Assembly (NCBI RefSeq): GCF_018446385.1
Contig: NC_055989.1
Span: 131,405,004 to 131,469,003 of the forward strand
Direction: 5' to 3'
Source: Zingiber officinale
Taxonomy: Eukaryota > Streptophyta > Magnoliopsida > Zingiberales > Zingiberaceae
DNA: 64,000 nt
Under the pieces are notes generated by a model that had not been told where the DNA came from, searched no databases, and was given only the letters and a program-made list of their open reading frames with translations. Position numbers and translations under genes: made by a program. This document shows, piece by piece, positions 5,021-8,887 of this stretch. How positions within the stretch are numbered: position 1 is the first letter of the stretch; every line of letters starts with the position of its first letter.

Positions 5021-5335
5021 CTCGGTGATCTGGCGATAAGCATAGGGGGACCCGCATGGGCAAGGATCAACGACACGTGGAGGTTAATGTAACGACCCGA
5101 CCCTCTTGGCCCATTTGGCGGCCCATTTGGCGACCTCTCATGTCGTCGACCGTCGGCCCTTATGTCGTCGGCCCATTTGGCGATCTCTAATGTCGTCGAC
5201 CGACGACCCTTGGCCGTGCCGTTACTCACTAGGACTTTCCACCCCTGGCCAGTGGATTTTTGCCTTCCCAAGGATTCGAACTCTAGACATCCAGGCTTAA
5301 GTATTAGAGTTTATGAATCCCGGTAGCCAAGTGAG

Positions 5336-6245
5336 CGCCTCTCACTTGGTTTTTTATTGTAACGACCCGGCCCTCTTGGCCCATTTGGCGACCTCTCATG
5401 TCGTCGACCGTCGGCCCTTATGTCGTCGGCCCATTTGGCGACCTTTAATGTCGTCGACCGACGACCTTTGGCCGTGCCGTTACTCACTAGGACTTTCCAC
5501 CCCTGGTCAGTGGATTTTTGCCTCCCCCAGGATTCGAACTTTAAACCTCCAAGCTTAAGTATTATAGTTTATGAATCCTGGTAACCAAGTGAGATGATCT
5601 CACTTGGTTACCAGGATTCATAAACTCTAATACTTAAGCGGCCCTTATGTCGTCGGCCCATTTGGCGACATTTAATGTCGTCGACCGACGACCCTTGGCC
5701 GTGCCGTTACTCACTAGGACTTTCCACCCCTGATCAGTGGATTTTTGCCTCCCCCAGGATTCGAACTTTAAACCTCCAAGCTTAAGTATTATAGTTTATG
5801 AATCCTGGTAACCAAGTGAGATGATCTCACTTGGTTACCAGGATTCATAAACTCTAATACTTAAGCGGCCCTTATGTCGTCGGCCCATTTGGCGACCTCT
5901 AATATCGTCGACCGACGACCCTTGGCCGTGCCGTTACTCACTAGGGCTTTCCACCCCTGGTCAGTGGATTTTTTGCCTCCCCCAGGATTCGAACTCTAAA
6001 CCTCCAAGCTTAAGTATTAGAGTTTATGAATCCTGGTAACCAAGTGAGATCCCATTTGGCGACCTCTAATGTCGTCGACCGACGACCCTTGGCCGTGCCA
6101 TTACTCACTAGGACTTTCCACCCCTGGTCAGTGGATTTTTGCCTCCCCCAGGATTCGAACTCTAAACCTCCAGGCTTAAGTATTAGAGTTTATGAATCCT
6201 GGTAACCAAGTGAGATCATCTCACTTGGTTACCAGGATTCATAAA
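5336..6245. repeat. Direct and inverted repeats of the foldback unit
   Basis: Copies of one unit of roughly 190-250 bases recur at about 5360-5595, 5640-5825, 5870-6050 and 6051-6240. Each carries the TCGTCGACCGACGACC motif, the GGACTTTCCACCCC motif and a TTAAGTATTAGAGTTTATGAATCC tail that ends in the CCAAGTGAGAT palindrome arm. They differ from each other by only a few bases. Confidence 0.85.
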
Positions 6246-6251
6246 CTCTAA

Positions 6252-7659
6252 GGGTGCGTTTGGTTCGGGGTTATCTTTGATAACCTTGGTTATCTATCCA
6301 AGGTTATCAACAAAACCTTTGTTTGGTTTAAGTAATCAACAATTCTGAAGTTATAATGCATGTCTGACACGTCAGCAATTTGGGCATCCAACCCGGAATC
6401 AGAAAACCTCAGGAAAGCAAGGTTTTTCTTGATTCCGGGGTTAATAATTTTTTTAAGACAAAATTAACCTCCAATTTTTATCGATTGTGACAAAAATAAC
6501 CCTGCAAGTTTATCAAATAACAATTTGCCACCGACGCTAGAAAACCCATCCATGTTCGCGTGTTCCCTGCCTCACAGAAATCCTAGCACGACGGTGATCC
6601 TCCTTGCGGCCGAATCCAGGAATTTGGATTTAGCGAATAAGGAGACGAGGATACCTTGGTGCCGCCATCAAAGGGATTCGGCCGGCACAATCGCGCATAG
6701 ATCTCCTTCTTGCAAAGACGTGCCCTGGCCGTCTCATCCATCGCCTTCCCCATCAAGTACGCGTAGTTCTTCGGCAGCTTCGTCTCCCACATGATGCCCG
6801 CCGAAGCCGCCCCTCGGAAAGCCCGGCTGAGCCGCGCCGCGCGGCAGACCTCCGGCGGATCAAGGTGTAGCAGCACCTCCGCGATGCAGCTCTCGGGCAA
6901 GTCCCCGAGGCCCGCGCTTAGTCCGCTGCCGCTGCCGGCGTGTTCCGCCCTAACGATGCTCGAAATCCACGACCCCATCCCCCGCAGCCAACGACACCAC
7001 AGCGCACCGGAGCAAGGAAGAAAGAGGCATCCACACCGGAATCGATTCCAGGTCGCTCGCTCGCTCGATCAGGCAGCCGTCGCACTCCGCGGATCGATTC
7101 GATGCTTTGCTTGAAGACGAGGGCAAGGAATCCAAAAAAGGATTATATATATATATATAAACAGATCGATTCGAAACAGATTTTCGTGGTCCAACTAATA
7201 AATCCTATTTAACGCCGACGTGGATCCTGGTCAGCAATGCTTATCTAAAGGATAATAATAAAATGGGGTAATAATAAACCTTCCAAAACTCTCCTTTCCT
7301 TTTATTAAATCAAGGAAGCCTAGCCTGATATGATAAAATATTAATCAAGGGTAATAATAAAAACGAGATTTTATATGGTAAAATATTAAATCAAGGGTAA
7401 TAATAAAAACGTTTCATTCCAGGGTATGGTAAAATCACTATTAATAATATAATATTATCATTATTAAATCAAGGGTAATATGGTAAAATATTACATTAGG
7501 TTATGTACTAAAACCTTCAAACAAACGAGATTTTACTAGATTACCTAAATTGAACCAAACAACCAATGGTTATGTTTCATTCCCTATAACCTTGGTTATG
7601 TGATTACTTGGTAATCACATAACTAAGGTAATATACCATAACTTGAACCAAATGCGCCC
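6252..7659. mobile_element. PIF/Harbinger-like non-autonomous transposon with captured gene piece
   Basis: Termini are GGGTGCGTTTGGTTC and the inverse of GGGCGCATTTGGTTC (13 of 15 match). The flanks are TAA at 6249-6251 and 7660-7662, the 3-bp duplication typical of PIF/Harbinger and Tourist elements. The uninterrupted target can be read in the neighbouring foldback repeats, which confirms the boundaries. There is no transposase. The interior holds an F-box exon in minus orientation (6655-6978), and AT-rich DNA with several similar AAATCAAGGGTAATAATAAAA stretches at 7320-7500. Confidence 0.88.
6655..6978 (-). pseudogene. Captured first exon of an F-box PP2-A13-like gene
   Basis: The minus strand encodes 108 residues starting MGSWISSIV. 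It contains GDLPESCIAEVLLHLDPPE, an F-box in the form used by the PP2-A12/A13 group of plant F-box/lectin proteins, then WETKLPKNYAYL and KEIYARLCRPNPFDGGTK, which is also characteristic of that group. Coding similarity stops at an AAG|GTATCC splice donor (6655/6654), so what was captured is exon 1 with the beginning of intron 1. GC content is high, unlike the surrounding transposon. The lectin-like PP2 part is absent, so it is a gene fragment. Whether it is transcribed is unknown. Confidence 0.85.
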
Positions 7660-8887
7660 TAATACTTAAGCCTGGAGGTTTAGAGTTCGAATCCTGGGGG
7701 AGGCAAAAATCCACTGACCAGGGGTGGAAAGTCCTAGTGAGTAACGGCACGGCCAAGGGTCGTCGGTCGACGACATTAGAGGTCGCCAAATGGGCCGACG
7801 ACATAAGGGCCGACGGTCGACGACATGAGAGGTCGCCAAATGGGCCGCCAAATGGGCCAAGAGGGTCGGGTCGTTACAGTTAAGGTCAGAGGGGTCAACC
7901 TACAGGTTCGGCCGATCGGAGAGGCCTTATGGCCGCCCGGCCTGGAGAAGTCTTATGGCCGCTCGGCCAGGATCGCGTCAGGGCTGGTGCGAAGACAGCT
8001 CGACCACGAGTCGAGCTTCCGACGCTCACAAACTGCCAAGTACAGAGAAATTGCCAAGCCGAGCGTCCTGTCTGCTCGGCTGAACTGCAGCTCAACCAAG
8101 GAAGCATTCTCGCTCGGTCCGACATGCCTTCAAGCCCGAGCCCTATAGGGTCGAGCGGCTATTCCGCTCGGCCCGAAATGGACAAGGCGCAGAAGGGGAC
8201 AAAGGGAGCAGCTAAGGATATCCTTCTCAAGACGTGTGTCGCCGACAGACAACATGGTTGGCGGCTGGACTAGACAGAGAATCGTACGGTGGAAGTTTCC
8301 ACTGTCACGTCAAAGATGTGCCCGGACGATTGCGGCATGGCGCCAGGCACGCTTTTCTGACACGACCATTCCAGGTATGCTTTCAGGAGCGTACACGCTT
8401 TGGGATGCGTGCACGCATCCCCCCGGGAGCCCTATATCAGGACCCTCAGGCTTCGACGGAGGTATGCATTCTACGTTACTGTAGCTACAGTATTCATTCT
8501 CGTCTTTCTCTCTTTCCGCCGAAGTTGACTTGAGCGTCGGAGGGCCGTTGCCGAGAACCCCTTCCCAGCTCGGTTTTGTGCTTGCAGGTTCTCGCCGAAG
8601 GTTCACAGCAGTCGAAGGGCTATACGTCATCACCGGGAGCGCCACGTACCCAGCGTTCATCGACTCAACACTCGGACAGGATCAAATTGGCGTCGTCTGT
8701 GGGAACACACCTGAATCCGAGCCGAGAAGATGGAAGAAGCTAGACGCCAACTCATGGTAACGCTCTCCCCCGAGGAGCTCAACGCACTCATCCAAGCGCG
8801 AGCTCGAAGATGGTCGAGTAACAGCAGAAGGCCCAAGCCGAGCGGATAGCGTAGCAGGCCACCTCGGTTTCTGGTGGCCGAGCGGCG

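Follow-up and report, generated by a model that had tools for sequence, protein, structure and literature searches.

The analysed window, a 64,000-nucleotide stretch of ginger DNA, contains a non-autonomous element of the PIF/Harbinger type with a length of 1408 bp. The first-pass annotation, made from the letters alone, had placed an element of about 1.4 kb here, and its limits hold to the base. Between the ends of the element lies host DNA from the 5' part of an F-box/PP2 gene, in minus orientation; the F-box exon with its 108 open codons and intact splice donor was likewise found exactly where it had been annotated. The features are listed below in window positions.

6249-6251, no strand: left target-site duplication TAA, read directly; an empty site is present in the surrounding array
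6252-7659: complete element, 1408 bp, non-autonomous, PIF/Harbinger-type
6252-6266, plus: left terminal inverted repeat, 13 of 15 bases matching the right end
6252-6614, plus: left element backbone, common to PPR-carrying and other family members
6583-6978, minus: 131-codon frame that results when the splice donor is unused, with the F-box inside
6615-7253, minus: captured host DNA (upstream region, exon 1 and start of intron 1 of the F-box/PP2 gene)
6615-6654, minus: first 40 bp of the parental intron 1, with the donor GT at 6654-6653
6655-6978, minus: exon 1, 108 open codons with the F-box
6979-7253, minus: 275 bp of captured DNA 5' of the parental ATG, with a TA-repeat stretch
7254-7659, plus: right element backbone, which holds AT-rich repeats
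7313-7332, plus: 20-bp marker block AGGAAGCCTAGCCTGATATG, present in three F-box and five PPR elements
7645-7659, plus: right terminal inverted repeat
7660-7662, no strand: right target-site duplication TAA

The element begins with GGGTGCGTTTGGTTC on one side and with GGGCGCATTTGGTTC when read from the opposite side. It had been described as having clean inverted ends and a TAA duplication; the duplication was confirmed on both sides, and the ends proved to be imperfect, with 13 of 15 bases alike. When 62,586 positions were scanned at a single spacing of 1408 bp that was picked post hoc, this element was the only place at which 12 or more of the 15 end bases matched and a 3-bp duplication was present. 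The empty target CATAAACTCTAATACTTAAGC (21 bp) occurs seven times in the 64-kb window with up to two mismatches, five of them exact, as compared to a mean of 0.01 occurrences in 100 shuffled sequences. The joined flanks of the element (117 bp) match three near-full-length intact stretches of the surrounding array at 97-99%, and other matches in the array are shorter or weaker (down to about 90%). This array (window positions 5088-6251 and 7659-7878) is composed of repeats of approximately 227 bp in a large inverted arrangement, in which two arms of 220 nt with 97% complementarity are separated by 2.35 kb; together with short palindromes, this resembles a fold-back element.

Searches for related elements covered the best 40 of 2338 candidates with the right end and the best 40 of 3850 candidates with the whole element, so that the family may be larger than the elements described here. 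An exact 3-bp duplication flanks 10 of the 12 bounded elements (TAA or TTA in nine cases, TTG in one), and the target duplication of the remaining two, L039 and L040, is not clean. The terminal inverted repeats of the family start with a GGGCGCGTTTGGTTC-like motif, which we take to be PIF-like. One relative at C9:145616998-145623098 (L047 with L045) has a length of 6101 bp, similar ends and TAA on both sides, and contains a DDE_Tnp_4 stretch (E 9.2e-15) and a Myb/SANT stretch (E 4.2e-9). Its frames are interrupted, be it by introns or by decay. This relative is a candidate source of transposition proteins; the window element would presumably be mobilised by a transposase encoded elsewhere. The ends, the 3-bp duplications and the relative with its two domains bear out the original assignment to PIF/Harbinger. 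As is characteristic of a Pack-PIF, the window element has no transposase and holds host gene DNA between its ends, and cargo has moved with the element to several places (four F-box elements and seven elements with a PPR cargo). We therefore regard it as almost certainly a Pack-PIF. As such it belongs to a described kind, and it is the likely ordered exchange of its cargo that makes it of interest.

A parent gene of the cargo, which the first-pass annotation had proposed to look for, could be identified as an F-box and PP2-lectin gene. The cargo at 6615-7253 has 95% identity to C14:83724688-83725339 (L028 4689-5340) and 94% identity to C13:99353792-99354450 (L027 4693-5351). These two places are presumed to be two alleles of one gene; we infer the homology of C13 and C14 from the search tables. 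In L028, the F-box exon of the donor gene ends at a splice donor in the position seen in the element and is followed by a probable middle exon, which was identified by eye, and by a 3' exon in which a PP2 domain is recognised (E 1.5e-27). Its F-box and PP2 domains were computed, and we assume PP2-A13-like to be the appropriate name. In the element itself, the 131-aa read-through frame is recognised by the Pfam models F-box-like (E 1.9e-6) and F-box (E 2.9e-6), both of which pass the cut-offs. As the cargo spans 275 bp of upstream sequence, exon 1 and the first 40 bp of intron 1, its template was DNA; a retro-copy of the mRNA is ruled out by the presence of intron 1 and upstream DNA.

All 21 first-look candidates for the F-box cargo were scored and comprise four elements, the two donor places and 15 weaker matches with at most 79% identity, of which L029, L030 and L046 were compared. 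In L046 (C10:99957500-99967000), which is related to the donor gene, the F-box exon carries a frameshift; that of L029, at a distance of about 117 kb on C10, has kept an open frame. The four elements are the window copy, L031 on C22, L032 on C13 and L033 on C3, so that the further copies with the same cargo that the annotation had called for do exist. Since both cargo junctions are identical in all four elements at their four places, a single capture with subsequent copying is the simplest reading, and the sequences suggest that this is what happened. Of the four, L031 has a frameshift, and the 108-codon frame is still open in the window copy, in L032 and in L033. In the right part of L033 (5276-5330), segments of its cargo are repeated and rearranged, such as patchy repair might leave behind.

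For the C3 copy, an uninterrupted counterpart was found at C4:155673145-155673445 (88% identity over positions 1-298 of the 302-position query; 28 of 28 candidates scored). None of the 21 scored cargo candidates lies at this place, and the C3 insertion thus appears to be limited to one haplotype. The best uninterrupted match for the C22 copy among the best 40 of 5941 candidates is C21:23005008-23005285 (95%, full length), which we infer to be allelic to the insertion site within a repetitive flank. L032 has a high-copy flank; among the best 40 of 4116 candidates we saw uninterrupted repeat copies and no allelic empty site. Apart from its open frame, nothing would speak for the window piece being a true F-box gene or an assembly artefact instead of a transposed copy. 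Four dispersed copies with 3-bp duplications of their own, empty sites and separate donor places leave this reading practically no probability, and a true gene at the window site was rejected on the basis of the donor places and the dispersed copies.

In seven sister elements (L007 and L034-L039), the same ends enclose a different GC-rich piece, which is PPR-like. The nine candidates for this cargo, all scored, correspond to these seven elements and two places on C7 and C8. These donors contain a stop-to-stop frame of 647 codons that has the appearance of a PPR protein; the captured N-terminal part stays under the Pfam cut-offs for PPR models (best E 0.001). L038 and L039 share their left PPR junction with the other five elements. 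They do not have the block AGGAAGCCTAGCCTGATATG, and their PPR donor DNA extends past the point at which the block-type copies stop. This block, located to the right of the cargo, was found at eight places in 3.09 Gb with up to two mismatches, namely in five PPR and three F-box elements, and the reversed-sequence control gave one match. The fourth F-box copy, L033, is without the block, and its right part is rearranged. The junctions of F-box and PPR cargos with the backbone nearly coincide: they follow CTTGCGGC on the left and precede TAATAATAAAA on the right, where the agreement in position is less certain because TAATAATAAAA occurs three times in the window element.

When a tree was built from both ends of 13 elements, the F-box copies formed a group (UFBoot 96), and L038 and L039 were placed with two relatives that have neither cargo (UFBoot 95), so that the remaining five PPR copies fall with the F-box ones. 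The tree of the left end, in which L041-L044 were included as well, agrees with this result (local support 0.974). The right-end tree also places L038 and L039 with the neither-cargo relatives (0.923), but the F-box copies are not grouped, and L033 is found with the PPR copy L037. As a later copy cannot easily regain donor DNA, L038 and L039 represent the older state. The simplest order of events would thus start with the capture of the PPR piece, continue with a change at its right junction, and end with the F-box piece taking the place of the PPR piece. From the sequences we consider it probable that the F-box fragment replaced an older PPR fragment in nearly the same slot in an ancestor of the window element, although recombination among family members could imitate such a replacement.

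An alternative to this order is that a block-bearing ancestor free of cargo gained the F-box and the PPR piece independently, and that L038 and L039 are recombinants. Similar elements can indeed recombine, and the support in the trees comes from short ends, with the right ends alone being unresolved. However, a cargo-free element is not among the eight block-bearing places that were found, and L038 and L039 combine the left PPR junction of the other five with additional donor DNA, as expected of an older state. We thus consider independent gains unlikely. If replacement did take place, error-prone repair of an excision gap would have switched to an unlinked template and inserted the F-box fragment. 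Interrupted gap repair with template switching fits the data because there is one slot, extra sequence is present and the donors are on other chromosomes; the extra sequence lies to the right of the new cargo. From these sequence features, we give replacement by such a repair event an even chance.

Fusion of two neighbouring family members, instead of template switching, could also have brought in new cargo. Fusion of neighbouring insertions is the published model for Pack-TYPE elements and for Pack-PIFs in particular (PMC8903248), and the donor gene does have a related element upstream of the captured DNA (L028 3654-4491, with matching parts at L027 3679-4456). This older, diverged family member ends 197 bp before the captured stretch. 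Its identity of 74-78% over the matched parts is much lower than the 94.6-98.7% between the ends of the F-box elements and the PPR element L034, so that these ends do not stem from the donor's neighbour and the latter was not adopted as their source. Furthermore, the 3.6 kb fetched around each PPR donor contained no detectable related element, and the backbone bases that flank the new cargo are nearly those that flanked the old one. Fusion therefore seems rather doubtful to us, if somewhat less so than independent gains. Neighbour fusion is also described in a 2026 review, which adds that a different mechanism, still to be discovered, might operate on unlinked genes (PMC13317346).

To assess selection and mutation pattern, substitutions were counted in gap-free columns and only when private to one sequence; three differences that separate all four F-box copies from both donors were excluded. 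The F-box cargo has 16 nonsynonymous and 6 synonymous private changes (p 0.80 versus a neutral expectation that ignores C-to-T bias, with the frameshifted L031 included). Since the coding changes of the donor alleles (4:3) do not differ from this ratio (Fisher p 0.64), selection is poorly resolved for this short exon, and a neutral reading of the cargo depends on few changes. The proposed dN/dS comparison with the parent gave values of 0.44 to 0.85, likewise based on few changes; the two donor alleles differ from each other with a dN/dS of 0.43, which is close to some of the copies. The PPR cargo has a ratio of 34:13 (p 0.74) versus 1:8 in its donors (Fisher p 0.001). C-to-T or G-to-A changes at CpG or CHG sites account for 22 of 31 changes in the F-box elements (7/7, 6/7, 4/9 in L032 and 5/8 by copy), compared with 1 of 18 for the alleles of the donor (p 6.6e-6), and such methylation-type changes make up 38 of 47 in the PPR cargo versus 2 of 9 in the donors (p 0.0012). 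An excess of this kind resembles the pattern of methylated DNA, and the copies look like decaying, silenced transposons and not like working genes.

The first-pass annotation had speculated that the F-box exon might act as a competitor or as a regulator of its parent. Expression of the captured exon is conceivable, as three of the four copies keep 108 codons open and upstream DNA is included, with the donor site intact; the product could be a short protein competing for SKP1. In addition, the four copies jointly match 223 of the 304 21-mers of exon 1 exactly in one donor allele and 183 of 304 in the other, so that small RNAs acting in trans on the parent mRNA are possible, and the nonsynonymous share in the elements does not depart from that of the donor alleles. 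Against such a role stand private changes in a neutral ratio that are mostly of the CpG/CHG type, the frameshift in one of the four copies and the dN/dS values given above. The donor F-box alleles moreover do not show the mutation bias, so that the copies are unlikely to have kept the parent methylated for a long time. The proposed function thus finds no support, and we consider an expressed F-box exon, whether as protein or as small-RNA source, highly unlikely. Judging from the sequence pattern, the cargo very probably has no coding role today. The joint explanation that accounts best for the data, and in which we have considerable confidence as a whole, is a Pack-PIF whose cargo, copied from the 5' part of an F-box/PP2 gene, was captured once, probably replaced a PPR fragment, perhaps via gap repair, and has no coding role.

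Several known systems share features with the ginger family. Ds elements generate 8-bp duplications, and Pack-MULEs, which belong to the Mutator superfamily, have longer ends and 9-bp duplications. Capture by Harbinger-type elements is less rare than the first-pass annotation had it: gene-carrying PIF elements are reported in grapevine (PMC2528002) and Pack-PIF elements in rice and maize (PMC8903248). The latter are likewise non-autonomous, have mostly TTA or TAA duplications and carry host gene fragments between conserved ends; however, in the PIF example given there a second fragment was added to the first by neighbour fusion, whereas here one fragment apparently replaced another (PMC8903248). 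The grapevine study describes elements with exons and introns of host genes, Pifvine-3 (PIF) and Hatvine-6 (hAT). Members of Hatvine-6 have common ends and often different interiors, as in the ginger family, but Pifvine-3, unlike the window element, carries its fragments in an extended 5' region next to the usual coding regions (PMC2528002). In maize, Ds-l4 comprises similar elements of about 1 kb with filler DNA, some of it from genes, and a Ds2 element with a retained intron points to capture at the DNA level as observed here (PMC3260210). Both differ in belonging to the hAT superfamily and not to PIF. Pack-MULEs, mentioned in the 2026 review (PMC13317346), are similar in that a non-autonomous DNA transposon captures and copies gene fragments. 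A limited literature search, and hence a weak negative, yielded no published case of ordered cargo replacement in one slot.

The way in which cut-and-paste transposons acquire fragments of unlinked host genes is still unsettled. The ginger family, in which one slot has an earlier cargo, a marker at the junction and a later cargo from an unlinked gene, allows the fusion and repair models to be compared, and the same sequences inside and outside the transposon, which differ strongly in methylation-type mutation for both cargos, provide an internal control for cargo decay. The internal slot of PIF/Harbinger elements may be exchangeable, with gap repair after excision swapping a captured fragment for an unlinked one at nearly the same junctions, a generalisation for and against which we see equal weight. 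If this is true, a single PIF/Harbinger lineage would sample host genes in succession, and the exchange of PPR for F-box cargo would be a polarised example with all states in one genome: the older state in L038 and L039, the intermediate right junction in L007 and L034-L037, and the new cargo in the F-box elements.
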